A stretch of DNA of 40,067 bases. It comes from Marinosulfonomonas sp. (GTDB lineage Bacteria > Pseudomonadota > Alphaproteobacteria > Rhodobacterales > Rhodobacteraceae). Location: the NCBI GenBank assembly GCA_030625325.1, contig DAOURA010000003.1, positions 1 to 40,067 on the forward strand, in the 5' to 3' direction. Shown piece by piece: positions 27,292 to 39,493 of this stretch. Under the pieces are notes generated by a model. That model ran no database searches, was not told where the DNA came from, and saw only the letters and a list, made by a program, of their open reading frames with translations. Each line of letters opens with the position of its first letter. Position 1 is the stretch's first letter. Made by a program: the position numbers and the translations under genes.

Positions 27292-29709
27292 TTAGCCAAT
27301 CTGCGCCCAGCCTGGAACTGTTTCACCAGAATTTTCCGCCGATTGATGGGCCATAACCGGGTCACTGTCGCCACTGGCATCCTTATCACCCAGATTGCGC
27401 AGAAGGCTTGACATTGCACGGCTCATTTCAGGCAGCGCATCGATGTCGTAATTTATCTGAATATCGTTCCAAATTTCACGAACAATTTCTACCTCGGATG
27501 GGGCGCTAACCAGCGGTTCTTCCTGCGCCGGGGCTTCATTTTCCACCCCTTGCGATACTGCTTCTATTGTGGATGTGATTTGCTCAACATCGTTTTTGCC
27601 CAGCGTTTCTTCCAGATCTTCCTGATAGTCGCCTTCAGCACTGGTATCTGCGGTTTCAACCGCTGCAAAAATACCTGACAGACGGCTTTCAATGCTGTCG
27701 CCCTGCTCTGCAATCTGGTCAGGTTCCGGGGCAACCGGCGGTGTTTCGTCCACATAAGACGCCAGTTTTTGCTGCAACAGGGAAAGATCGAAGCCACTGG
27801 AAATTTCTTCAACGTCGGCCTGTGTGTCCGCAGGTTGATCCACGGGCGCAACGGCAACATCAGCCGGTGACGCAATGTTCAGTTCATCTTCAACCGGGGT
27901 TTGCAGATCAGCGTTATCTTCGGCGGCGGTGTCCATTTGCCCTGCAACAGCCGATAAAAGGGCATTTGCGTCATCGGCCACAGGTGTGTCGGCCAATATG
28001 GCTTCCCCTGCCGGGGCTTCAAAATCATTCAAATTCGGGATATTGACGTCGGCTTCATCAGCGTCGTCGGCGCGCAATGCTTCTTGTTCTGCGGGCGCGG
28101 CTTCACTGGTTTCTGCTGTTAGGGTCTGGTCAAGTTCAATGCCGTCTTCAAGGGGGGCCTCAAAGCGGGTGAAAACATCGGCAGATTCTTCATTTTCCTG
28201 CGGCTCGCCTTGCGCTTCATCCTGCGCGCTTTCGGCAAAGATATTGACAGAAGGCTGCAATTCATCAACCGCTTCAGGGGCGGCTTCTTCTGGTGACGAT
28301 GCAAAATCCGCTGGGAATTCATCGAACTCATCATCCAGATCATCGGTGACAACCGCTTCGCTAAACTGCACCGGTTCATCCTGGGTGCTGGCGACAGGGG
28401 TTTCATCCTGAAACGACACCACAGCGTCCTGTTCAGGTGGGGTTATGTCCTGCTCCGGTGTAAACCCGGGTGCAAAATCATCAAGCTCAGCAGCCGGTTC
28501 AACCTGTTCGGTCAGGGGGGCGTCCTGCGGGGCGGCAAGGGGTGGTTCTTGCGGTGCGACCATCGCTTCCGGTGTCAGGTGGAACACATCATTCAGCCAT
28601 GCATTTTCTGCTGGCTCAGATGCCTGATTTTCTGCCAGATCAACAGTTTCGTCGGCCAAATCTGCGACTTCATCAAAGCTATTCACGACCCCATCATCCA
28701 TAGAAAACCCATCATCCACAGCCGGACTGTCAGGGATTTCACGGGAAAGATCCTGACGCATGCGGTCTGCGTCCTGCGTGCTTATACGTTCACGATTAGA
28801 ATGGGACGCCGTCAGGATACGAACAGGTTTTCGCATCGTAACACTTGGAAAGTGCTCTATATTATTGGTTTCGCTGGCGATTTCTGATGATTCAATGGGT
28901 TGTTCTTGTTCTTCAACGGTATCATCTTCTTCAGCCGTATCATCCAGTTGGTAGCGCCACAAAAGATGCCCGCGCTCACTGTCTATCGTTTCAACAATAC
29001 CGTTCAGGGAATTCAGGAAGTCATGGGCACCACTTGTGCCCCATGCTTCATCATCGTCTTCTTCGCGGGCCTGAATTGCGTTGGTCAGGGATATGAACTG
29101 GCGCCCACTGAACAGATCGGCGGTTTCACGTTCAAGGCGGCGGTCAATTTTGCCCAAATCCAGATCTGACGTAATCTTGTCAGCCCGCGTCACCATCAGC
29201 AGGCTGTGTTTACGCAAACGTTCTGGCAACGATTCCCATGCGCTGCGCTCACTTTCGCGCCACGCCTGACCGGCATGGGTGCACCACAAAACGGCGTTCG
29301 CACAGCCGATGGTTTTGATCCATGTGCCCATGGCGATGCGCGGGTCAGAAATGCCAGGGGTATCCAGCAAATCACAGGTTTTCAGAAACTCTGCTTCTTT
29401 ATAGATCCGGATAAAACGGGTTTCCTTGATCGGCACTGCCATCAGGTTGTCCAGATCCACAGCATGGCGGTTGCCACTGTGATCTACCCGGTAAGGTTCT
29501 TCTGATCCATACCGAAGCCAAACTGGCGGCAGCTGGGTTGCTGTCACCTGTGTCGGAAGCACGGACTGGCCAAGCAATAGGTTGAGAAGGGTCGACTTAC
29601 CCGCGCTGAATTCGCCCATCAGGGCAATTACAGGGCGACGGTGGGTCCACTGTGCCAGCCGTCCCATTTGTTTTGCGCTGACGTAGCGTATATTTTCGTC
29701 ACTTTTCAT
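27292..29709 (-). CDS. GTPase of dynamin/Era-like type with a very long acidic tail (GTPase B)
   Basis: 805 residues from ATG 29709, with GGAG nine bases upstream; the longer frame invades the upstream gene. The GTPase domain (about 20-255) has G1 GEFSAGKST (32-40), G3 DTPG (116-119), G4 TRAD (174-177), and the phrases TQLPPVWLRYG and VLWCTHAGQAW. Residues about 256-735 are extremely rich in Asp, Glu, Ala, Pro and Gln, with few hydrophobic runs, so probably disordered. A short ordered-looking C-terminus follows (IVREIWNDIQINYDIDALP). No membrane helix is seen. It is the last of three leftward genes, 31 nt after GTPase A. Its GTPase domain is clearly paralogous to the protein at 35852. The GTPase role is secure; biological function is unknown. 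Confidence 0.8.
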   Translation of the reverse strand: MKSDENIRYVSAKQMGRLAQWTHRRPVIALMGEFSAGKSTLLNLLLGQSVLPTQVTATQLPPVWLRYGSEEPYRVDHSGNRHAVDLDNLMAVPIKETRFIRIYKEAEFLKTCDLLDTPGISDPRIAMGTWIKTIGCANAVLWCTHAGQAWRESERSAWESLPERLRKHSLLMVTRADKITSDLDLGKIDRRLERETADLFSGRQFISLTNAIQAREEDDDEAWGTSGAHDFLNSLNGIVETIDSERGHLLWRYQLDDTAEEDDTVEEQEQPIESSEIASETNNIEHFPSVTMRKPVRILTASHSNRERISTQDADRMRQDLSREIPDSPAVDDGFSMDDGVVNSFDEVADLADETVDLAENQASEPAENAWLNDVFHLTPEAMVAPQEPPLAAPQDAPLTEQVEPAAELDDFAPGFTPEQDITPPEQDAVVSFQDETPVASTQDEPVQFSEAVVTDDLDDEFDEFPADFASSPEEAAPEAVDELQPSVNIFAESAQDEAQGEPQENEESADVFTRFEAPLEDGIELDQTLTAETSEAAPAEQEALRADDADEADVNIPNLNDFEAPAGEAILADTPVADDANALLSAVAGQMDTAAEDNADLQTPVEDELNIASPADVAVAPVDQPADTQADVEEISSGFDLSLLQQKLASYVDETPPVAPEPDQIAEQGDSIESRLSGIFAAVETADTSAEGDYQEDLEETLGKNDVEQITSTIEAVSQGVENEAPAQEEPLVSAPSEVEIVREIWNDIQINYDIDALPEMSRAMSSLLRNLGDKDASGDSDPVMAHQSAENSGETVPGWAQIG

Positions 29710-29740
29710 GGTTCTCAACTCCGTTTTTATTGGCAGGCTT

Positions 29741-31792
29741 TCAGGCCGCGGCCTGCGACAGTGCAACCAAAGCATCATCAAGCGCATGTTCGGCCTGATC
29801 ACGTGTTGCACCGCCAGCTTCGTTCGCCTGGCCGTTCTCTATCCCGTTTGAAAGACGCATCAAGGCATCCCGCTGTTCCTGAAGGAATACAGCCAAACTT
29901 CTTTCTATTTCGTCAAAAACGCCTGCAACCTGTGTTTGTTCAAGCTCTTCAATGATTGATCCGACTTCTGCCAGAATCAACTCGGCATAATCATTTGCAA
30001 AGGCACCAAAACCTTTGCGTTTCTGGCGCCAGCGGCGCCACCAGCTACCGTTCAGGTCAAGGGCAATTGTTTTCCCCAGAACAACCGGCGCAGGAACAAC
30101 CGGGGTTACCGGGGGTTCAATCTTAAATTCGCCAATCTGTGCGCCCAGTGCTTTTGTGTATACGTCTTCAATATCACTGGCAGCATCGGAAAAGACGGCC
30201 GTGATCTGCCTTTTGGTTGCCGTGCCAAACTGGGCATAGGCCGAGCGCAGCAATAGCCGCAAACCAGTTGAATCATACTGCCATGCTTCCTGTTCGCCAT
30301 AGCGTTCCAGGTGGGTAATCAGGGCATCCGTTGCCCGGCGAACAAAACTATCCTGGGCCTTGATCAGTCGCGGTTTCAGGTCACTAAGGATTTTGTCAGT
30401 TGCTTCTTTAAGTTTTCGTTCATTCTCGGCGATCACATGCTCAAGCGCATTGCGTACTTCGGCACCCTGCAAACGACTGGTGTTTTCACCAAAATCAGTG
30501 ACCTGTGAAATTACCGCTTCGGCCTTTAGTTCACTGGTCAGGTTGTTCAGCTGAACGCTGATACTGTCCAGCAGGCGTTTGCCCGAACCTTCCATAATAC
30601 GTTCATTGATCGCGATCAGCAGATGGGGAACACCCGATAATGCCCATGTCTGCGAAATTGCATCATGCACCGGCAGCCCGGTTGGCTGTGTTGCCCAATC
30701 AAGCAAGGCCGCCTGACTGTCATCGTTCAGCGTGTCCAGTTCACCCGTCAGGGCGGCTTCGGCCCATTTGGCGCTGCCGAAAATGATTTCGCAATCTTTT
30801 TGCGACTTCAGTTCCTTTAGGGTCGCACGAATACTGTCGCGGATTTCAGGGATCTGAACACTGGGCTGGGCCAGTTCGTCAATGCGGTTAACAAACAGGA
30901 TAACCTGACGTTTTTCAAAGTTAGAAATCATCCGCACAAGCGCCATATCTGTGGTGTTCAGCGCCTGATGGGCAGACAAAACAACCAGACAAATTTCGGA
31001 CCCGCGCAGGCTTTTCAGGGTGATCTGTTCGCGCACCATAAAGGTGTCGTTCACGCCGGGCGTATCGCGCAGCGCAAGTGAGCCCGGACGCTCGGGCTGA
31101 TCAATGAACAGTTCGGCTGTTCTGGTAATATCAGCAAAACGGCCCTGTTTATTGCCTATATCATTTTCATATTCTTCCGGCTCGCCCATGCACACATAGC
31201 GCGTGATCAGTTCTTTATCATAATAGCCGTATTTCTGGGTCTGCCCCAAAAGGTGCGCAAAGCTGTCACCAAGGCGAACTTTGGTCTGCTGGTACATCTT
31301 CGCAATCTGGATTTGGATTTTTTCCATTTCCTCACTTGCGCCGGCCCGTTCGGCCAGTTCGCCCATGCGCCCGCCCTTAACCATCAGGCTGTCCCATTCT
31401 TCCCTGTCGAAAAAGGTAAATCTGGCCTTGGTCTTCTTGTCAGCGGTCTTAGAATTCAGGTGCAATGTGGTTACAACAGATGTCCAGGGGTTCACATCCG
31501 ACGGCAGCAGGTCAATCACCCCAGCCAGAACATTGGTCAGCGCGGTTTTGCCGGCTTTCACCTGACCAACCAGTGTCACGCTTGGTTCAAATTCCTGTAA
31601 TTTGCGACCGAGGGACTGGGCACGCTTAACCAGATATGGATCAGACACTGTTTCCAGCATCTCCACAGCTTTCTGGGTATTCTCCAAAGCACTTGTCAGC
31701 GGTTCAAGAACCTCTGAGCCAATCGAAAGCAGATGTATATTCTTTGGGCTGCCTGATTGCTCCGCAACATTTGCGTTATTTGCTTCGTTCAT
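29741..31792 (-). CDS. dynamin-like GTPase (GTPase A)
   Basis: 683 residues from ATG 31792; GTG 31804 in frame is an alternative. After about 70 residues of helix comes a GTPase domain with G1 GQVKAGKTALTN (76-87), G3 RDTPG near 242-246, and G4 NRID (302-305). An insert of over 100 residues between G1 and G3 is typical of large dynamin-like GTPases. The C-terminal half is mostly helical and predicted to form long coiled bundles. At about 584-595 a WWRRWRQKRKGF patch, rich in Trp and Arg, looks suited to insert into lipid bilayers, similar in kind to the tips of bacterial dynamin-like proteins of the YfjA/CrfC group. It probably self-assembles on membranes. It lies between the 65-aa gene and GTPase B. 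Confidence 0.82.
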   Translation of the reverse strand: MNEANNANVAEQSGSPKNIHLLSIGSEVLEPLTSALENTQKAVEMLETVSDPYLVKRAQSLGRKLQEFEPSVTLVGQVKAGKTALTNVLAGVIDLLPSDVNPWTSVVTTLHLNSKTADKKTKARFTFFDREEWDSLMVKGGRMGELAERAGASEEMEKIQIQIAKMYQQTKVRLGDSFAHLLGQTQKYGYYDKELITRYVCMGEPEEYENDIGNKQGRFADITRTAELFIDQPERPGSLALRDTPGVNDTFMVREQITLKSLRGSEICLVVLSAHQALNTTDMALVRMISNFEKRQVILFVNRIDELAQPSVQIPEIRDSIRATLKELKSQKDCEIIFGSAKWAEAALTGELDTLNDDSQAALLDWATQPTGLPVHDAISQTWALSGVPHLLIAINERIMEGSGKRLLDSISVQLNNLTSELKAEAVISQVTDFGENTSRLQGAEVRNALEHVIAENERKLKEATDKILSDLKPRLIKAQDSFVRRATDALITHLERYGEQEAWQYDSTGLRLLLRSAYAQFGTATKRQITAVFSDAASDIEDVYTKALGAQIGEFKIEPPVTPVVPAPVVLGKTIALDLNGSWWRRWRQKRKGFGAFANDYAELILAEVGSIIEELEQTQVAGVFDEIERSLAVFLQEQRDALMRLSNGIENGQANEAGGATRDQAEHALDDALVALSQAAA

Positions 31793-31823
31793 ACTAATGC
31801 CCACTCAAAGTCTACTGAAATAT

Positions 31824-31831
31824 TTTGCAAA
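31824..31831. promoter_or_regulatory. TTTGCAAA octamer, 32 bases before GTPase A start
   Basis: A perfect 8-bp palindrome in the 75-bp spacer between the 65-aa gene and GTPase A. The same octamer recurs at 32216-32223, and a version split by three bases (TTTGTTGCAAA) lies at 32171-32181. TTTGC-type half-sites are used by short-chain acyl-CoA regulators of the RamB/PccR group, but that link is only a resemblance. A CAAACC/GGTTTG hairpin directly follows at 31832-31851. Confidence 0.35.
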
Positions 31832-31867
31832 CAAACCATTATGACGGTTTGCGGTTAGGTCGAAATC

Positions 31868-32065
31868 TTAGTGATCGCGGGTCAGGCGGCCAAACAGGCG
31901 GCCCAGATGGCTTTCGCCCTGCATCATAGCCCCGTCATGATTGCGGGTCTCCTGACCGGCAATCATCGCTTTCAGCTCTCTGAAGATTTCAAAACCGGGT
32001 TCCCCTTCAGCCAGGGAACCTATTTCGTACGGCATTCCGTATATTCTGTGTTTTGCAAGCGTCAC
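31868..32065 (-). CDS. 65-residue protein with GTG start, unknown function
   Basis: The frame is open to 32143, but the start is best placed at GTG 32065, where a perfect AGGAG (32078-32074) sits eight bases upstream; no ATG fits. The product begins VTLAKHRIYGMPYEIGSLAE and ends HLGRLFGRLTRDH. It is soluble and polar, with a central helix (FEIFRELKAMIAG) and a basic C-terminus, and has no cysteine motif, signal peptide or membrane segment. It is the first gene of the leftward set, 75 bases ahead of GTPase A, so it is probably co-transcribed. It might be an adaptor or regulator of the GTPases. I recognise no family. Confidence 0.7.
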   Translation of the reverse strand: MTLAKHRIYGMPYEIGSLAEGEPGFEIFRELKAMIAGQETRNHDGAMMQGESHLGRLFGRLTRDH

Positions 32066-32279
32066 CGTTTTAACTCCTAATTTTTTTATTTGGGCCTGCA
32101 CTGCCACCACCCCCTCAGTCGGTAATAAATACAGGTGCCCCATAATCTGGTATTGAAACTAGAAATCAAATTTGTTGCAAATTGGGCGCGTTCACGACTT
32201 GTTTACGAATGCCAGTTTGCAAATTCATCTTGGAGTTGTGCGAATCTGGCAAAACCCGCGCAATTAGGGTGCTAAAAGG

Positions 32280-32306
32280 TTGACGTACGTCAAGAAACCG
32301 TTTCTT
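32280..32306. promoter_or_regulatory. two abutting palindromes, likely operators
   Basis: TTGACGTACGTCAA (32280-32293) is a perfect 14-bp palindrome. AAGAAACCGTTTCTT (32292-32306) is a perfect 15-base palindrome about a central C. They overlap by two bases, which suggests either two regulator dimers side by side or one regulator with a tandem site. The first contains TTGACG, which could double as a -35 element. Confidence 0.5.
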
Positions 32307-32309
32307 TAG

Positions 32310-32334
32310 AGGTGGTTACCCGAAGCCACCACCT
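32310..32334. promoter_or_regulatory. hairpin in the leader before the phosphatase gene
   Basis: AGGTGGT (32310-32316) pairs with ACCACCT (32328-32334) around an 11-base loop. It lies about 120 bases before the phosphatase start and just right of the tandem palindromes. There is no T-run. It could be a transcribed leader hairpin or another operator. Confidence 0.4.
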
Positions 32335-32456
32335 AGACCTTTACCCGCCCTACTTTTGACAAGAAACCTGTTCATTTCCGCTTTGAAAGAGGGTTCGATC
32401 ACCACTTGGTATGGTCGGTTTCTTATAAAACTAAAGGGATCACAGGCACTTCACTT

Positions 32457-33005
32457 ATGGAAATGACACAACGCAAAGAATTCCTGGCCGTACCGGAGCC
32501 TTACCATTTGGCGCCCTCTGAATATTATGGCCCGCAGAACTTTCATTGGTTAATTCGTGGCCGGTTGGCAGGCATGCCCCGCCCGGGCCTGTTGCTGCCC
32601 ATGGAAAAGGATCTGGAATCCCTGAACAGAATGGGGATTTCCCTGCTTGTCACTCTTACAAAAGAGTGGGAACCACCGGTTAGCACGCTGAAATCATTTA
32701 ATATTGATAGTCTGAATGTCCCAATTGTTGACATGGGTCCACCCACCATCGAACAGGCCTGTATGACCTGCGCCAAGGTTGATGAATATGTCTCATCCGA
32801 ACGGGCCGTGGTGTTCCACTGTCATGGTGGCCACGGACGAACCGGCACCCTGCTGGCGTCACAGCTAATCTGGTATTCACCCGACAGCGATGCAGCCATC
32901 AAAAGCGTTAAACGCGCCTGCAATAAATGGATCGAATCTGAAGAACAGATGGAATTTTTAGAGGAGTTCGCAGCCTACAGACGCGAAACTGCAAACGCCT
33001 TCTGA
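32457..33005 (+). CDS. dual-specificity-type protein phosphatase
   Basis: 182 residues from ATG 32457. In-frame TTG 32406 and ATG 32463 are alternatives, and no start has a strong ribosome-binding site. The P-loop HCHGGHGRTG carries the CX5R signature (Cys122, Arg128), and Asp92 in VPIVDMGPPT is the likely general acid. The N-terminal half has the usual strand-helix pattern (RLAGMPRPG ... LNRMGISLLVTLT) of compact bacterial and mitochondrial DSP-like phosphatases. It would dephosphorylate Ser/Thr/Tyr residues, or possibly phosphoinositide-like lipids. It opens the rightward operon. No kinase is encoded nearby. The same fold seems to recur, without the catalytic Cys, at the end of the ABC-like protein at 34619-35851. 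Confidence 0.85.
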   Translation: MEMTQRKEFLAVPEPYHLAPSEYYGPQNFHWLIRGRLAGMPRPGLLLPMEKDLESLNRMGISLLVTLTKEWEPPVSTLKSFNIDSLNVPIVDMGPPTIEQACMTCAKVDEYVSSERAVVFHCHGGHGRTGTLLASQLIWYSPDSDAAIKSVKRACNKWIESEEQMEFLEEFAAYRRETANAF

Positions 33006-33012
33006 AATATTA

Positions 33013-33125
33013 GTGTGATCTGAACCATTTTCAGTTGGTGTTAAAACTCAGAACCAGCACAACAATTATCAGGTTGGAAGCATCAAAACCGAAAAGGTCG
33101 GCAAAATCCGCCAACCAGATCACAC
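33013..33125 (+). promoter_or_regulatory. structured RNA leader ahead of the Roadblock-like gene
   Basis: GTGTGATCTG (33013-33022) pairs perfectly with CAGATCACAC (33116-33125). Directly inside, CCAAC (33111-33115) pairs with GTTGG (33073-33077), so the right strand forms one continuous 15-base helix with a 50-base bulge on the left strand. A small CCG/CGG hairpin is possible inside. It lies in the 174-base spacer between phosphatase and Roadblock-like genes. An attenuator, a processing site or a small RNA are possible; it matches no riboswitch class I know. Confidence 0.45.
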
Positions 33126-33159
33126 GATAAAACTACTACAAAAAACTATTAACCTCCGA

Positions 33160-33175
33160 GAAAGAAAGAAAGAAA
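33160..33175 (+). repeat. (GAAA)4 tetranucleotide repeat next to a start codon
   Basis: Four perfect GAAA units end four bases before ATG 33180. They form the only purine-rich stretch available as a ribosome-binding site for the Roadblock-like gene. Copy-number change would alter spacing and perhaps translation. Confidence 0.7.
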
Positions 33176-33179
33176 CACA

Positions 33180-33584
33180 ATGTCACTAGATAAAGCACTA
33201 CAAACAGCAATGACCGGCGTTCCAGAATGTCTGGCTTCCGGTTACGTCGATATGGATTCTGGCATGGTTTTGTCAGTTCAGACTGTTGATTCGCACCCAC
33301 AAGAAGTGATCGACACCCTGGCCGCGGCGACAGCCGACCTGTTTCAGGGTGCCAGCGTGACCTATATCGAAAACATCTTCAAAAAGTTCCGCGGAACCGA
33401 AGGTGACGATTCCCACTACTTTCAGGAAATGTTCATCTTCAGTGAAAACCTGCTGCACACTTTTATTCGCACCAAAAAGTACCCAAGCCACGTAATCTGC
33501 TTTGTGTGCCGTAAAAATGCCAACCCCGGCATGGTTCTGACAAAATCCCGCATGAGTGTTGATGCCATCTGCGCCGCGGTCTAA
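33180..33584 (+). CDS. Roadblock/LC7-like small protein
   Basis: 134 residues. The layout matches the Roadblock/LC7 fold: an N-terminal helix (LDKALQTAMTGVPECLAS), strands GYVDMDSGMVLSV, a central helix (PQEVIDTLAAATADLFQG), two more strands (YFQEMFIFSENLLHTFI and HVICFVCRK) and a final helix. Such proteins form homodimers or heterodimers and act as regulators or platforms for small GTPases (MglB for MglA, conservon proteins). In this operon the candidate partners are the dynamin-like GTPases and the next protein. No catalytic motif is present. Translation appears to start at ATG 33180 behind the GAAA repeat, without a classical AGGAG. The fold is judged by eye and needs a profile search. Confidence 0.6.
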   Translation: MSLDKALQTAMTGVPECLASGYVDMDSGMVLSVQTVDSHPQEVIDTLAAATADLFQGASVTYIENIFKKFRGTEGDDSHYFQEMFIFSENLLHTFIRTKKYPSHVICFVCRKNANPGMVLTKSRMSVDAICAAV

Positions 33585-33595
33585 AGAACGAACAG

Positions 33596-33627
33596 GCGCT
33601 CTGCGTGGCTTAGCCCATGCAGAGCGC
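33596..33627 (+). promoter_or_regulatory. very stable intercistronic hairpin
   Basis: GCGCTCTGC (33596-33604) pairs with GCAGAGCGC (33619-33627). Inside, GTGG pairs with CCAT through one G-U pair, leaving a six-base loop, about 13 bp in all. It begins 11 bases after the Roadblock-like stop codon and has no T-run. It probably protects the upstream mRNA from 3' exonucleases or sets differential expression within the operon; partial termination is also possible. Confidence 0.65.
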
Positions 33628-33662
33628 ACCCCAAATAACCCTTTATCCAAGAGCTGTTCATA

Positions 33663-34622
33663 ATGTCCCTAAGCGAATCCATTGTTGGTATTTTAAAGCT
33701 TGTAAAAGGCGGCGCTGAAAAAAGCAGCCCAAGTTCACGGGTGTTGTCCACAGTAAACTCTGCAGACAAACTATCAGCAATTATTACCGAAATTGGTGAA
33801 ACTGTTCTTCCACGATCACTGGTCTTTAGTATAGCAAAGAGCGAACTTATCGTGGACGCAGGCAGTCAAAGGCTACTGCGCATTATTCACTGCAAACCGG
33901 AAACGCTTATTGGCGGCGGCGACAAGGCCCTTGTTTTTGCCGGGCGCAATGACGCCAAGCTGGACAAACAATCTGAACAAATCGCTGCAATGCTTTGTGC
34001 ATTTGTTTCCGAAAGCGGCCCCCTGGAAGTCACATCCAATGCCCCTGATCAAGTCTATTCGGTCAGCGAAGTAGGCTTTACAACCAAAGCCCTGCATAAG
34101 GCCTGCGAGGGGCACGTCTTCAAAGATGCGCCCGCAAAAGCAGAAGAAAAGCCAAAAGAAAAAGCTGTGCCTGTCAAAGACAGCCCGAAACCCAGCAAAA
34201 AAACCACAACCAGAATTCAAAAGGCAGAGCCCGACAAACCACAAAGCCCGGCCCCACTGCCGTCCGGCACCGGGCAGGTCGGGCTTGCTTTTTTTGAGGC
34301 CTGCAAAGACCAATGCCTGAACATCTCTATCTTTTCAAAAGATGGCAGCCTGATCGAATTTTCCGGCGCCACCAAAGTCAAAAGTGAATGGGAAGAAACC
34401 GGCAAAGATATTGTGAACGACATCACAAAATGGATATCCGCAACAAGTGCCGTGATTGAAACTGATCAGTTGATCGTATTGAAGTCACCAAAACTGGAAC
34501 ACACTTCAGTCTGCTTTCTTGCCGATTCTGAACGAACCGTTGTTGCCGTATTCAAAAACGCTGACCTGACACGCATCATGTCCTGCGCCACCAAAGCATT
34601 CGGCTGGGGTGCAGCGGGATGA
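33663..34622 (+). CDS. two-domain protein with a Roadblock-like C-terminal half
   Basis: 319 residues. Residues 1-150 form an alpha/beta domain of unknown type (LVFSIAKSELIVDAG ... LLRIIHCKPE). Residues about 155-205 are a Lys/Pro-rich linker, probably flexible. Residues 205-315 show helix-strand-strand-helix-strand-strand-helix order (LNISIFSKDGSLIEFSG, then VIETDQLIVLKS, SVCFLADSERTVVAVF), which resembles Roadblock/MglB folds. No enzyme motif, signal or membrane segment is seen. The stop overlaps the ATPase start (ATGA), so synthesis is coupled to the ATPase. No clear Shine-Dalgarno precedes ATG 33663 apart from AAGAG. It may bridge the small Roadblock-like protein and the ATPase or GTPases; that is inference. 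Confidence 0.6.
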   Translation: MSLSESIVGILKLVKGGAEKSSPSSRVLSTVNSADKLSAIITEIGETVLPRSLVFSIAKSELIVDAGSQRLLRIIHCKPETLIGGGDKALVFAGRNDAKLDKQSEQIAAMLCAFVSESGPLEVTSNAPDQVYSVSEVGFTTKALHKACEGHVFKDAPAKAEEKPKEKAVPVKDSPKPSKKTTTRIQKAEPDKPQSPAPLPSGTGQVGLAFFEACKDQCLNISIFSKDGSLIEFSGATKVKSEWEETGKDIVNDITKWISATSAVIETDQLIVLKSPKLEHTSVCFLADSERTVVAVFKNADLTRIMSCATKAFGWGAAG

Positions 34623-35851
34623 CACGGCCTATTCTTGCCATCAGGGAACTGAACCTGAAGGTGGCAAACCAACAACTATACCACGGCCTGAATTTTGAGG
34701 TTGCACCAACCGGGATCACCGCCCTGATGGGGCCGGTGGGTGTTGGCAAATCATCATTGCTGGCCTGGCTGGGGGGTATTTTTGATCCGCTGCTGTTTAA
34801 GGCCGACTGGCAGCATATGGAATACGCCGGGGTTGCCTTTTGCGACGACAACCGCCCGCCAATTTTCCGCCAAAAGGCCATGCGCTATATCGGCGAGACC
34901 ATGAAGGTCATCGATATGTTGCTGAAAAATGATCCGCAGCTTTTGTGCATCGACGAAGTGACCGCCCGCCTGCCCCCGGATGAGGCCGACACAGTCCTTC
35001 AACGGCTGGTCGAAATATCGCAATCACGCGCCGTGCTGATGGTGTCCCATAATCAGCAACAGGTCGCAAAATATGCCCAAAGCGTTCTGCTGGTCGCCGG
35101 TGGCATCGCACAGGAACACACCCCGGCCAAAGAATTTTTTGAGACCCCAAAATCAGATGCCGGGCGTCAGTTTGTGCGCACCGGCGGCGTGGTCGTGGTT
35201 AAACCGGGGACCCTGCCCAGCCATCTGCGCTCTGATTTGCGCGAAGTGCCGGAAAACCTGCACCTTAGCGACAATGACTATAGCGACGGAAACCCCCTGC
35301 GCTGGGCCGTTGAAAATAAGCTGGGTGTCTACACCCCCCAAAGCCCGAACGGTATTTCAAACGCTGAACTTACCGCGATTAAGGGGTTGGGGATTGATAC
35401 GGTTGTCATGGTTGACGGGCAACGCTCACCCAGTTCCAAAACGCTAGCGGACGCAGACCTGACAGGCATCTGGCGGTTCATGCCCGAGGGCAAATTGATC
35501 CCCATGCCGGAATGCAAACACCTGTGCCGGGATATGCAGCGCCTGCTGGATGCTGGCGAAGGTCTGATTGTTATCGCCAACCCTGACAACAATGACGCCG
35601 AGCGCACCATTGGATCACAACTGGTTCATATGGGGCTGGGGGCGGACAAGGCAGCCGTGGTTGCACAAAGCCTGACTGTGCATGGCGATTTTGACATCAC
35701 CGATGAACAATTATTCTGGGATCACGAACTTTCCAATGATCTGGAAATTGATGCCCTGATGCAAGAACTGGAACAGCGCGAACACGACAACCAGAAACAA
35801 AAAACCGCCCCCACTAACGGGAAAAAAGAACAGGGTCAGGTGGTAATGTAA
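34619..35851 (+). CDS. ABC-type ATPase without signature motif, fused to a degenerate phosphatase-like domain
   Basis: 410 residues. Residues 1-190 are an ABC-like nucleotide-binding domain: Walker A GPVGVGKSS (38-46), Walker B LLCIDEVT (108-115) and H-loop His144. The LSGGQ signature and most of the helical subdomain are missing; GETMKVIDMLLKNDP stands where they should be. Residues about 225-355 resemble the phosphatase at 32457 (KLGVYTPQSPNG, then IKGLGIDTVVMVDGQR, LIPMPE, and NNDAERTIGSQLV). In the P-loop, Arg329 aligns with the catalytic Arg, but Asp stands in place of the nucleophilic Cys, so it should be inactive. A Gln/Lys-rich tail ends the protein. No membrane partner is encoded nearby, arguing against transport. 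The next gene starts directly after the stop. Confidence 0.72.
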   Translation: MTRPILAIRELNLKVANQQLYHGLNFEVAPTGITALMGPVGVGKSSLLAWLGGIFDPLLFKADWQHMEYAGVAFCDDNRPPIFRQKAMRYIGETMKVIDMLLKNDPQLLCIDEVTARLPPDEADTVLQRLVEISQSRAVLMVSHNQQQVAKYAQSVLLVAGGIAQEHTPAKEFFETPKSDAGRQFVRTGGVVVVKPGTLPSHLRSDLREVPENLHLSDNDYSDGNPLRWAVENKLGVYTPQSPNGISNAELTAIKGLGIDTVVMVDGQRSPSSKTLADADLTGIWRFMPEGKLIPMPECKHLCRDMQRLLDAGEGLIVIANPDNNDAERTIGSQLVHMGLGADKAAVVAQSLTVHGDFDITDEQLFWDHELSNDLEIDALMQELEQREHDNQKQKTAPTNGKKEQGQVVM

Positions 35852-37135
35852 ATGGCATCTGAAAACAGCGCACAAAACCTGATTAAGTTCTTTCAGGAAT
35901 TTCAAAAGAAAACAGCGCAGAACCCCAATGCAAATACCGGTGAACTTTCTGAATTGCGCACATTGGCCCGGCAATTCGAAACCCGGCTAAATCGCCCAAC
36001 CCGTATTTTCATCGGGGGTGAATATGGCTCGGGCAAATCAACGCTTGCTAACATTCTGGCCGGCGAACAGCTTATCCCGGCCAGCATATTGTCCGGTGGC
36101 CTGCCGCCACTTATCTTTCGCTATGGCGCAGCAATCGGTGCTGGTGCCGGTTGGTGGGGGAAAAAGGTCAATGCCCTTGCCGATTACATCGATTTTGTTG
36201 AACTAACGGCAGAAAACCCAGACTTTATTGTTATTCAGTTGCCCAACCCGATCCTGAAACAGTTCAATTTCTTTGACGCCCCCGGCGCGCAGCAGCCCGC
36301 AAAGCCCGACAGGCGTGTGGAAGAAATGATCAAACGGGCGGATATGCTGGTTTGGTGTACCAATGTGCTTCAGGCTTGGGCCGAGCCAGAAAAAAAGCAA
36401 TGGTCAAAACTGCCCGAAAAAATTCGTGACCACGGAATTCTGGTTGTAACCCACGTTGATCTGCCGGCGGCACAGCATGGTTTTGAACGGGTCATGTCCC
36501 GGTTGATGAAACAGGCGGGCCCCGGCTTTCAGGCTATTGCATCCTTTGCCGCGCCCACCGCTATTGATGCGGCCCCCGGTGGTAAAACCACCGATAAACG
36601 AATGTGGAAAGACAGTGGCGCAGCTTCGGTTCTTGCCAATATCCTGTCCGAAGTTGATCTGATTCAGGAAACCCTGATCAGCGACATTGGCGCGACGGCA
36701 AAATCAAAATTCGTCCCCTTCGTCATGGCCCGCAATACTGACAAAAAGCAGAAGGTTGAAACCCCGCCGCCGCCAGCAAAGGCACCCACACCGGCGCCCA
36801 GCAAACCACAAGAAGCCAAAGACCTGCATCCTATCCTGCAAAGCTGGAACCTGAAGGTCGATGCCTTAATCACGATTGCCGAGACCCCGGAAAGCATCGA
36901 CGACGGGGACTATATTCAGACCAGTTGCGATGTGGTTATGGAAATCATCGATACCATTTCAGAAGCAGACGTTCTTGACGACAAAACTGATTGGATATTG
37001 CCACAGTTTCATGACGCACTGGACCTGTTGATCCTTCTTCAGGTCGAAGACGGGGACACCCCGGTGATTGACGCCACAAACATTCTGGTTCAGCTGGGCC
37101 GGGACCTGCCCAAGATTGCATCTCTGACAAAATAG
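35852..37135 (+). CDS. GTPase, paralogue of GTPase B (GTPase C)
   Basis: 427 residues. ATG 35852 follows the upstream TAA without a single spacer base. Residues 1-48 are helical. The GTPase domain (about 48-280) has G1 GGEYGSGKST (55-64), G3 DAPG (142-145) and G4 THVD (200-203). Phrases shared with GTPase B include GGLPPLIFRYG and ADMLVWCTNVLQAWAEPEKK. A Pro/Ala/Lys-rich linker (about 298-320) leads to an acidic helical C-terminal domain of about 105 residues. No membrane helix is visible. G4 has His where NKxD or TKxD-type proteins have another residue, so nucleotide specificity should be tested. It closes the rightward operon; 172 AT-rich bases follow before the next gene. Confidence 0.8.
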   Translation: MASENSAQNLIKFFQEFQKKTAQNPNANTGELSELRTLARQFETRLNRPTRIFIGGEYGSGKSTLANILAGEQLIPASILSGGLPPLIFRYGAAIGAGAGWWGKKVNALADYIDFVELTAENPDFIVIQLPNPILKQFNFFDAPGAQQPAKPDRRVEEMIKRADMLVWCTNVLQAWAEPEKKQWSKLPEKIRDHGILVVTHVDLPAAQHGFERVMSRLMKQAGPGFQAIASFAAPTAIDAAPGGKTTDKRMWKDSGAASVLANILSEVDLIQETLISDIGATAKSKFVPFVMARNTDKKQKVETPPPPAKAPTPAPSKPQEAKDLHPILQSWNLKVDALITIAETPESIDDGDYIQTSCDVVMEIIDTISEADVLDDKTDWILPQFHDALDLLILLQVEDGDTPVIDATNILVQLGRDLPKIASLTK

Positions 37136-37307: not shown

Positions 37308-38873
37308 ATGGCACAAAATAAAAATTGGATAAAATTTCAGGGTGAAACATACGAAGTCAAACCGGGCGAACGCGCGTTGGACGCAATGTTGCGCCGCGGG
37401 GCACCGGTTACTTTTTCCTGCCGTAAGGGGGCCTGCCGTTCCTGCATGATGCAGACAACAGCTGGCGATCCGGGAAAGGCCGCAAAAGAACGCCTGCCGA
37501 AGGAATTGCAGGACCACGGTTTCTTCCTGCCATGCCTTGCCAACGACATGACCGAAGTCGAAGCAAAACTGCCCGACCTGTCCCTGTGCACGCAAAACGC
37601 AGTTGTCTTTGAAAAGAACTGGATCACTGACAACATCATCCAGCTTCGCCTGGAACTTGAGGTCGCAACCCCCTGGGCACCTGGCCAGTGGATCGCACTA
37701 ATGAACGAAAATGGCGCCACACGAAACTATTCCATCGTCAGTATGGCCACCGATTTTTACATGGACCTGCATATTAAGGTATACGAAGGCGGTGCCCTCA
37801 GCGGATGGGTGGCCCAATCCCTGAACGTCGGGGACAGCGTGAAATTTCAGGGGCCGGGCGGGCACTTTACCTACCGGGATGAACTGAAAAATACCCCGCT
37901 GGTTCTGGTTGGCACCGGAACGGGTGGTGGCGCACTAATGGGCATTGTACACGACGCACTGGCGCGCGGCCACGACGCCCCAATTCAGTTTTATCATGGT
38001 GCCAAAACCAACGCTGATCTGCACCTGCGCGAAATGTTGAAAGATATTGACCCCGAGCGTGTGAAAATCACCCAGATTGCATCCCGTGAAGAGGTCGAAA
38101 ATATCGTCCCCACCCGGGTTGCTGATATTGCGCTTCTCGAAAACCCCGACCTGACAGGCACGGCTGTGTTTGTATGTGGCTCGCCCGATATGGTTGAAGG
38201 TGTGCGCATTCAGGCCCTGCGACAGGGTGCGCCCCTTGAACACCTGTACAGCGACGCCTTTGAACCTGCTGCACCTTTCATGCCCGATGAAGACACAAAG
38301 TTCAAAAACCTTCAGGCTGATCCTGAACTTTGGGAAGCCCTTGAAAACGGCAAAAAACTGACCCGTATCCTGACCGATTTCTACACTAAGGCCTATATGG
38401 ACCCGCGCCTTGCACCGTTTTTTCACCGCACCACCCTGCAACGGGCGATCGATAAGCAATACAACTTTCTTCAGGATATGTTCAGCGGTTCAAAACTATA
38501 CTTTGGGGAAAAGCCGTTTAACGCCCACCACTGGATGGTAATTTCTGATGAACTGTTTGATTACCGCGAACGCCTGATCATGAAAGTCGCCCGCGAACAC
38601 GGCGTGCCTGAACATCTGTTGGGCCGCTGGGCCGCGGTTCATGAACTGTTTCGCCGTGAAATCGTCAAACCAGCGGCGCGCGGTATGATCCAGCACGGGA
38701 TTGAACGCTATCTTGAAGGATATTCCGAAGAAACCATGGAGGTTGGCACTGTCTGTGATGGCTGCGTCAGCGAAGTATTCGAAGGTGACAAAGTTCGTAT
38801 GCACATGCGCACCGGTGAAATCTTTTGTATGGACTGCGAAGGAAAAACCATTCAGGGCGTGGACGCCGCGTAA
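37308..38873 (+). CDS. fusion of 2Fe-2S ferredoxin, FAD/NAD(P)H reductase, truncated haemoglobin and CxxC-CxxC tail
   Basis: 521 residues from ATG 37308, with GGAG seven bases upstream. Residues 1-90: plant-type ferredoxin with Cys38, Cys43, Cys46 and Cys76 as cluster ligands. Residues about 95-330: ferredoxin-NADP reductase-like module with RNYSIVS for FAD and VGTGTGGGALMGI for the dinucleotide. Residues about 345-460: globin of the truncated type (DPRLAPFF, then NAHHWMVISDELFD, where His407, or His408, would be the proximal haem ligand, and LLGRWAAVHELF). Residues 483-510: Cys483, Cys486, Cys507 and Cys510, probably a zinc or metal site. Domain order is the reverse of flavohaemoglobin (Hmp). 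NO dioxygenase activity or an oxygen-sensing reductase are the likely roles. It lies 172 bases behind GTPase C and may have its own promoter. Confidence 0.82.
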   Translation: MAQNKNWIKFQGETYEVKPGERALDAMLRRGAPVTFSCRKGACRSCMMQTTAGDPGKAAKERLPKELQDHGFFLPCLANDMTEVEAKLPDLSLCTQNAVVFEKNWITDNIIQLRLELEVATPWAPGQWIALMNENGATRNYSIVSMATDFYMDLHIKVYEGGALSGWVAQSLNVGDSVKFQGPGGHFTYRDELKNTPLVLVGTGTGGGALMGIVHDALARGHDAPIQFYHGAKTNADLHLREMLKDIDPERVKITQIASREEVENIVPTRVADIALLENPDLTGTAVFVCGSPDMVEGVRIQALRQGAPLEHLYSDAFEPAAPFMPDEDTKFKNLQADPELWEALENGKKLTRILTDFYTKAYMDPRLAPFFHRTTLQRAIDKQYNFLQDMFSGSKLYFGEKPFNAHHWMVISDELFDYRERLIMKVAREHGVPEHLLGRWAAVHELFRREIVKPAARGMIQHGIERYLEGYSEETMEVGTVCDGCVSEVFEGDKVRMHMRTGEIFCMDCEGKTIQGVDAA

Positions 38874-38899: not shown

Positions 38900-39493
38900 A
38901 TGACTGAAGAAACCGAAGGCAAATGTCCTTTTGGGTTCGGCGATGATGCAGAACCCGGCGCAGACAGCCCATCGACCCACAGCGCGCTGGCCCCGGCGAT
39001 GTCGCGCGATATGCTTCCCACACTGGTGAAGACATCAATCGAACAGGGGGCGGACGGTCAACAGACCGGGCGTTGCCTGTGTGGCGCTGTCAGTTACAAA
39101 TTTCTTAAGCCCGTGGAAAAGGTTTTCGCCAACCATGACGAAAATTCCCGCCGCTGGACTGGTGGGGTTTCCCTCACAATCATGGTGCGGGCCTCAAGCA
39201 TGGAATTTCACGGTTGGGGGCGCCTTGTGCATTACGCCAGCTCTGCGCGGGATCGGCAATGTTTTTGCCGCCTGTGCGGCACCAGCATGTTCGTGCGCCA
39301 CGTCGCACCGGCGGCGATGGACGGCATGCTAAGCCTGTCTGCCGGAACGCTGGACGATTTTGAGGGCATGAAGCTGACAGCCGAAACATATATTGACCGA
39401 AAGCCCGATTTTTATTCATTCAAAGGCGACCGCCGGGTGATGACAGAGGCCGAAGTCGAAGAAATGTACGTGGAACGCCCCAAGGCCGGTTAG
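38900..39493 (+). CDS. GFA/CENP-V family protein with N-terminal extension
   Basis: 197 residues. The core (about 55-190) is the GFA fold with zinc ligands in GRCLCGAVSY and CFCRLCGTSMF. The family includes the glutathione-dependent formaldehyde-activating enzyme Gfa, but most members have unknown substrates. The N-terminal 50 residues form an added segment with KCPFGFGDDAEPG and a Met/Leu-rich helix (MSRDMLPTLVKT). ATG 38900 follows AGG with seven bases between. It is 26 bases behind the globin fusion gene and very likely in its operon, suggesting a shared role in nitrosative or aldehyde stress. A strong terminator follows. Confidence 0.78.
   Translation: MTEETEGKCPFGFGDDAEPGADSPSTHSALAPAMSRDMLPTLVKTSIEQGADGQQTGRCLCGAVSYKFLKPVEKVFANHDENSRRWTGGVSLTIMVRASSMEFHGWGRLVHYASSARDRQCFCRLCGTSMFVRHVAPAAMDGMLSLSAGTLDDFEGMKLTAETYIDRKPDFYSFKGDRRVMTEAEVEEMYVERPKAG

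Follow-up and report, generated by a model that had tools for sequence, protein, structure and literature searches.

We describe a cluster of seven genes at positions 27292-37135 of a 40,067-nucleotide stretch of Marinosulfonomonas sp. DNA (Rhodobacteraceae; contig DAOURA010000003.1), called the window throughout. The cluster is a rarer variant of an operon that, in about a quarter of this one family, joins Roadblock proteins and dynamins to a kinase-reader-eraser unit, and gene fusions suggest that the parts touch. In the window, a phosphatase (PTP) and an ATPase with a pseudophosphatase domain stand in place of the kinase trio, made up of a kinase, an FHA protein and a PP2C phosphatase. With moderate confidence, we read the products as a dynamin-type GTPase assembly that would be set by phosphorylation and gated by Roadblock proteins.

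Gene content and organization

The window annotation supports seven genes across this interval, in two divergent sets. The leftward set comprises G2 and G1, and the rightward set PTP, RB1, RB2, ATPase and G3.

27292..29709, minus strand: G1, small dynamin-family GTPase of the DS class with a long acidic, low-complexity tail (Dynamin_N)
29741..31804, minus strand: G2, large dynamin-like GTPase of the DL class, putative partner of G1 (Dynamin_N and profile A9)
32406..33005, start probably 32457, plus strand: PTP, DSP-type phosphatase with an intact CX5R motif (PTP-SAK, Tc-R-P)
33180..33584, plus strand: RB1, predicted Roadblock/LC7-fold protein (model, PDB match, profile match)
33663..34622, plus strand: RB2, with a predicted C-terminal Roadblock-fold domain at about 34266-34613 (model)
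34619..35851, plus strand: ABC-like ATPase with a dead DSP phosphatase domain at about 35237-35728 (ABC_tran, hhalign)
35852..37135, plus strand: G3, second small dynamin-family GTPase, DS3 class (Dynamin_N)

The start of G1 was corrected to about 29709. For the PTP, the alignment makes the ATG at 32457 likelier than the TTG at 32406.

Dynamin-family GTPases

The three GTPases recognised in an earlier note on this DNA, made from sequence alone, all pass the Dynamin_N gathering cut-off of Pfam (G1, E = 1.8e-11, residues 29-161; G2, 2.2e-11; G3, 1.3e-8). In G1 and G3, Pfam detects the GTPase domain alone, and the tail of G1 is acidic and of low complexity. The N-terminal part of G1 is 50-65% identical to DS proteins adjoining RB1 in three other loci (L035, L117, L126), and G3 shares 35-42% identity, across about 230-240 residues, with the small GTPase encoded last in the PTP operon of genomes G057 and G174.

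As for the large GTPase, its family profile (A9) has Campylobacter DLP1 (Cj-DLP1; 5owv, E = 1.6e-13) as its best PDB match and also finds Nostoc BDLP (2j68, 5.4e-12) and mitofusin. The motifs GxxxxGK[ST], DTPG and NRxDE are each present in 114 of the 117 large GTPases collected, whose median length of 694 aa is the full dynamin-like length. A tryptophan-rich WWxxW segment is conserved in alignment A9 and occurs in 81/117. Because of the family resemblance and this segment, the dynamin-type GTPase pair probably acts on membranes, by analogy with its relatives.

These features also bear on a different explanation, in which the GTPases would work like the conservons of actinobacteria and pass a kinase signal on to metabolic or transcriptional control, without membrane remodelling. 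Two of the three window GTPases have little beyond a GTPase domain and a disordered tail, which would suit such a switch, as would the often degenerate DS3 class; moreover, Roadblock, GTPase and kinase-like protein together form the conservon plan. Set against this are the full dynamin-like length of the large GTPase, its best PDB relatives, which are membrane-tethering or membrane-binding dynamins (roles partly from PMC6104087), and the pairing of the genes, since bacterial dynamins that act on membranes usually come as pairs (PMC6104087). We consider a conservon-like switch unlikely.

Roadblock proteins

The earlier note had also seen two proteins with a Roadblock-like layout. For RB1 this holds by fold, both in the predicted model and against PDB. 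For RB2 it may hold by predicted fold in the C-terminal third, and the sequence profile gives no support.

The model of RB1 (pLDDT 74.9) has the element order H-E-E-H-H-E-E-E-H, which contains the alpha-beta-beta-alpha-beta-beta-beta-alpha order of the Roadblock fold. The structure search suggested earlier bears this out: all 50 PDB matches listed are Roadblock/LC7 proteins or Ragulator, Rag or EGO chains (best E = 7.2e-7, template modelling scores of about 0.5-0.66), and the best include 3kye, MglC, MglB and Ragulator. The RB1 profile aligns with Robl_LC7 proteins of another family over 112 columns (probability 69%, E = 4.6e-5 as a single comparison). Pfam Robl_LC7 gives no match for the window RB1 or five relatives. 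Judged from its model, RB1 is a member of the Roadblock superfamily by fold and not by Pfam.

RB2 consists of an N-terminal half without assignment, a Pro/Lys/Ala-rich linker and the C-terminal domain. In a low-confidence model, this domain (residues about 202-317) superposes on MglB with a Z of 10.4 over 100 residues (Foldseek E = 8.3e-5); residues 205-313 are the better-modelled part, with block means of about 50-83. The RB2 profile matched neither RB1 nor bona fide Roadblock proteins. RB2 may be Roadblock in its C-terminal third only, again by predicted fold.

Distant RB1 relatives adjoin bona fide Robl_LC7 proteins (two loci tested) and an MglA/Arf-like small GTPase (one locus, L075). In L075, L079 and other loci of family f38, such relatives are often in tandem and lie near Robl_LC7, an MglA/Arf-like GTPase, an ABC1-type kinase and a calcineurin-like phosphoesterase, and we regard these loci as another GTPase-Roadblock-phosphoryl cluster. 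Phage records gave no match to RB1. A viral contig in IMG/VR (L087:9791-10396) carries a close RB1 relative (52%) adjoining an open reading frame (ORF) that, by inspection, may encode a phage portal protein.

Active phosphatase and ATPase-pseudophosphatase

The CX5R phosphatase noted previously is well supported: the PTP matches PTP-SAK (E = 4.1e-20) and Tc-R-P (E = 8.9e-19) in Pfam, and its active-site motif reads HCHGGHGR. CX5R is intact in the window PTP and in every other separate PTP collected.

The ATPase has, as the earlier note stated, Walker A (GPVGVGKS) and Walker B (LLCIDE) motifs, together with an H-loop (SHNQ), and a pattern search did not find the ABC signature motif. It passes ABC_tran narrowly (E = 1.6e-5, score 26.0 against a cut-off of 25). 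From its sequence, it would work like an ABC-type P-loop protein and is not classed as an ABC transporter; its assignment as a transporter subunit was rejected. We also rejected the MADS component mad3, which PADLOC proposed with E = 3.5e-12, but with a best stretch of only 57 residues around Walker B and the H-loop. Searches with the ATPase matched 196/196 genomes, merely through generic ABC ATPases; true full-length relatives are present in 2 of the 195 others.

To the earlier description we add that the ATPase ends in a degenerate DSP phosphatase domain, which makes up its C-terminal half. In hhalign, 160 columns of the profile of this half match that of the PTP (98.6%, E = 8.5e-16 as a single comparison), and HCHGGHGR of the PTP falls on ANPDNNDAER, so that the catalytic cysteine is lost. 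Since the cysteine of CX5R is gone, the domain is taken to be catalytically dead. Fusions of an ABC-type ATPase with a phosphatase that keeps HCLAGLGRTG or HCRGGLGRTG adjoin RB1 in four genomes from other families of the phylum, three detected by Pfam and the fourth by BLAST and motif. The window ATPase looks like the descendant of such an ATPase-phosphatase fusion, in which the fused phosphatase would have died and the separate PTP taken over.

The common kinase form

The large-GTPase profile (E <= 1e-40) found a large dynamin partner in 101 of 394 Rhodobacteraceae genomes. The best place was read in 95 of these 101 (80 fetched and 15 from an earlier set; G586, G697, G687, G570, G627 and G783 were left out). 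Loci and genomes are kin by descent.

The Ser/Thr kinase (STK) is present in 68 of the 95 loci, FHA in 71, PP2C in 72, and at least two of the three in 71. Small GTPases are found in all of them (DS in 92, DS3 in 81), RB1 and/or RB2 in 79, and the kinase set together with a Roadblock protein in 67. All eight genes of the common form (kinase, FHA, PP2C, GTPase DS3, large dynamin, small dynamin, RB1 and RB2) occur in 49/95 loci, and the exact order STK-FHA-PP2C-DS3-DL-DS-RB1-RB2 is kept on one strand in 42, the first six genes being in order in 58. Kinase, FHA reader and PP2C in the commonest form support the suggestion that reversible phosphorylation is part of the system.

As a control, the same profiles were applied to 18 loci of distant RB1 relatives. 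None of these has STK, FHA, PP2C, the large GTPase or RB2, and three have a single DS or DS3. Ten extra loci from weaker RB1 matches all contain FHA and a small dynamin-family GTPase, with the kinase in nine, PP2C in eight and the large GTPase in seven. Among 289 genomes sampled across the class, the large GTPase occurs only in the window's genome and in one other of its own family; therefore, this form looks entirely or almost entirely restricted to Rhodobacteraceae.

Ruegeria and Leisingera plasmids carry annotated copies, with genes labelled as kinase, FHA, PP2C, dynamin family and hypothetical proteins. Plasmid carriage, the patchy distribution (101/394 genomes) and the exchange of variants between loci would agree with a defence against phage or stress, in which dynamins act on the membrane at infection under kinase or phosphatase control. 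B. subtilis DynA is reported to have a phage-resistance role, and PADLOC gives weak matches to LeoA and LeoBC. These matches, however, are what any dynamin GTPase domain gives: PADLOC returned no strong match to a known anti-phage system, only weak partial matches on P-loop and GTPase domains. Furthermore, the neighbours in five annotated plasmid loci are metabolic, transport or stress genes, and none there is annotated as a CRISPR, restriction or toxin-antitoxin gene. We find a defence role improbable.

Two other features of the surroundings were observed. In nine loci, the cell-shape gene mreB lies within the 20-kb stretch that surrounds the system (L124, L143, L145, L148, L150, L151, L153, L155 and L156), with rodA too in seven; eight of the nine are kinase-type, and in L124 mreB accompanies an RB1 gene at a contig edge. 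Genes with transporter substrate-binding domains adjoin kinase-FHA-PP2C in L066, L067, L068, L218 and L123 (Ruegeria, Leisingera and G027), and a sensor is possible.

The phosphatase variant and gene fusions

Close relatives of RB1 (E <1e-40) are found in 13 of the 394 family genomes, the window's own included, and by BLAST dynamin-family GTPases lie near RB1 in 11 of these 13 loci. As for the other two, G072 has only a putative GTPase tail before RB1 at a contig edge, and G813 has no dynamin-family GTPase nearby. The PTP is present in seven of the 13 (the window, G057, G174, G706, G731, G851 and, fused, G662), without a kinase in the locus. Five of them (G057, G174, G706, G731 and G851) have the order PTP-RB1-RB2-ATPase-large GTPase-small GTPase. 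In G851, an ORF of more than 2,850 aa starts beside the PTP gene and runs off the end of the stretch (L121:11439-20000).

The window lacks the large GTPase of that PTP operon and has the divergent G2-G1 pair instead. In a quick tree, some forks of which are weakly supported, its large GTPase groups with other kinase-less loci. From gene content and sequence, we take the cluster to be a hybrid in which the common dynamin pair (G2-G1) is joined to the rarer phosphatase module (PTP-RB1-RB2-ATPase-small GTPase). Its exact combination was found as a block in no other locus read. The co-occurrence proposed as a check is seen for the eight genes of the common form and not for the window's own set; the outcomes named in the note as refuting, scattered genes or a match to a named system, did not appear.

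Elsewhere in the genome, 6 of 11 other RB1-bearing genomes searched have a strong kinase match (E <1e-90); therefore, the two forms can coexist in one genome.

Three kinds of fusion join the parts. Besides the ATPase-phosphatase fusions, genome G662 encodes one 615-aa protein made of a GTPase domain, an active PTP (HCHAGHGR) and RB1, and genome G579 fuses a small GTPase to Rob119, a small protein with a Roadblock-like layout. Together with the neighbourhood over about 100 loci, these fusions support the view that the genes belong together. They also stand against the idea that independent adjoining operons merely share an insertion site, as do the gene order and strand kept in most loci and the differing positions relative to neighbours. 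That idea could draw on the window's exact combination being seen in no other locus read, and on the different histories of the G2-G1 pair and the PTP module; already disfavoured, it now has very little probability in our view.

Proposed mechanism

In general, GTP drives the assembly of dynamin pairs, in most cases at a membrane, and GTPases have their cycle adjusted by Roadblock dimers that bind them. Phosphothreonine is recognised by FHA domains, and phosphate is removed by PP2C and DSP enzymes. Because of these family functions, and because Roadblock and phosphatase are found fused to the GTPase, we favour a dynamin assembly set by phosphorylation and gated by Roadblock proteins.

In this assembly, the large and small dynamin-family GTPases would be a working pair. 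RB1 and RB2 would bind the GTPases directly and set the GTP cycle or the assembly, which reversible phosphorylation of the machine itself would switch. In the common form, the Ser/Thr kinase would write the mark, the FHA protein read it and PP2C erase it. In the window, the active PTP and the ABC-like ATPase with its dead phosphatase copy would stand in for the trio, the dead domain being most simply a scaffold for substrate or partner binding whose grip is altered by ATP. Membrane remodelling, and a redox or nitric oxide (NO) input through a neighbouring Fer2-FNR-globin reductase, may be added more cautiously.

A more specific version, in which Roadblock gates dynamin-type and not Ras-type GTPases, the control modules are interchangeable, and the phosphatase form receives redox or NO input through the reductase, is put forward tentatively, and we lean slightly towards doubt.

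Several observations weigh against the phosphorylation-set, Roadblock-gated assembly. The WWxxW tip motif is not universal among the large GTPases, and no window protein has a transmembrane-like stretch. The DS3 proteins of kinase-type loci (e.g. L128:4904-6139) have GxxxxGK[ST] in 62/86 and DxPG in 21/86 cases, and DS3 of the common form may be a pseudo-GTPase on this sequence pattern; the window G3, unlike many DS3 copies, retains the GTPase motifs. The fused GTPase of G662 also has no clear DxPG motif. The kinase domain of the system has no match in the window's genome, a single genome with an assembly 91% complete. The RB2 assignment comes from one low-confidence model, with a pLDDT of 44.8 and 215 of 319 residues below 50.

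Finally, the profiles detect neither RB1 nor RB2 in 16 of the 95 loci. Seven of these carry Rob119 and nine no Roadblock-like protein at all; among the nine, at least four (L137, L138, L169 and L187) stop at a contig edge next to the GTPases, and L182 starts next to them. Rob119 itself was rejected as a firm Roadblock member, its support being weak both in hhalign (35% against RB1, 4% against Robl_LC7 proteins) and in Pfam, where Robl_LC7 matches one of three separate copies below the cut-off (E = 0.0016) and the fused copy gives no match.

Control region and neighbouring genes

The remaining features of the window that bear on the cluster are the following.

31805..32405, no strand: control region common to both divergent sets, with the palindrome TTGACGTACGTCAA
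31868..32143, minus strand: 91-aa ORF, probably not a member of the set (no family match or relative)
37308..38873, plus strand: Fer2-FNR-globin reductase, possible accessory gene of the window's variant (Pfam)
38900..39493, plus strand: GFA-family protein, after the reductase gene (PF04828, E = 4.3e-13)

The 91-aa ORF had been counted as an eighth gene. It has no Pfam, NCBIfam or PADLOC match and only a self-match in the pool of collected loci, and for these reasons it was excluded; the divergent layout proposed with it stands, with seven genes.

The control region holds the perfect palindrome TTGACGTACGTCAA at 32280-32293, which resembles an Fnr/Dnr box; TTGAYNNNNRTCAA occurs once in the window against 0.26 expected. 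The sequence before the PTP gene has no such palindrome in any of the five other distinct loci. With a single site that is not conserved, it is therefore only a lead. Promoter and terminator scans gave no more matches than shuffled sequence. In G+C content, the cluster (51.5%) hardly differs from the remainder of the window (52.5%), so composition shows no sign of recent import.

A Fer2-FNR-globin gene lies near 7 of 25 kinase-less loci against 0 of 73 kinase loci (Fisher 3.5e-5, a value that overstates independence given the kinship among loci), and in five of the seven PTP loci. Its position varies: after the small GTPase, before the PTP or after RB1. This neighbour suggests a redox or NO input, which a palindrome of Fnr/Dnr type fits, though it is not conserved; shared sites or shared descent could explain the association too. 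Clustering of the flanks gave a six-locus cluster, represented by the ORF of L033 directly after its reductase gene, and the window's GFA gene may belong to it.

Comparison with known systems

Roadblock proteins are partners of small Ras-like GTPases. Bacterial dynamins are paired membrane GTPases for which we know of no dedicated regulator. Through the operon, the question of how bacterial dynamins are turned on and off can be addressed directly, and the swap between the kinase trio and the phosphatase with ATPase-pseudophosphatase serves as a natural experiment on the tasks of the control unit. If the proposal is true, it would mean Roadblock control of membrane-remodelling GTPases in bacteria, parallel to eukaryotic Roadblock/Longin proteins in membrane traffic. 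The full-text literature searched, which leaves out most subscription journals, does not describe the operon, in line with the earlier statement that no described system has these parts together.

With the type VI secretion control PpkA-Fha-PppA, the common form shares a writer-reader-eraser trio of kinase, FHA and PP2C. It differs in that no type VI secretion gene is found among the annotated neighbours of the Ruegeria and Leisingera loci, although no profile search for such genes was made.

Paired bacterial dynamins, such as Campylobacter Cj-DLP1/2 and LeoABC, likewise have adjacent genes for two dynamin-family GTPases, whereas the small partners here appear, from sequence, to lack a helical trunk of dynamin size. 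The main text of PMC6104087 on Cj-DLP mentions neither Roadblock nor kinase (0 occurrences), and PMC4316618 has no mention of dynamin, FHA or phosphatase.

MglA/MglB, a Ras-like GTPase with a Roadblock GTPase-activating protein, resembles the system in the Roadblock/LC7 fold predicted for RB1 and, less surely, for the C-terminal domain of RB2, both encoded beside GTPases, and in L075, where a distant RB1 relative adjoins an MglA/Arf-like GTPase and a Robl_LC7 protein. Here, in contrast, the GTPases are of the dynamin family and not small and Ras-like, and a kinase or phosphatase set lies within the operon.

The nearest known plan is that of the actinobacterial conservons (histidine kinase-like CvnA, Roadblock CvnB, CvnC and small GTPase CvnD), operons which also join Roadblock, GTPase and a kinase-type sensor. 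Instead of these, the present system has Ser/Thr kinase-FHA-PP2C or a DSP phosphatase with dynamin-family GTPases and no CvnC relative noted; the Pfam scan of the seven window genes found no CvnA-type histidine kinase, CvnC or Ras-like CvnD. We class the system as a variant of the Roadblock-controlled GTPase module; should dynamins prove to be under Roadblock control, a separate class would be warranted.

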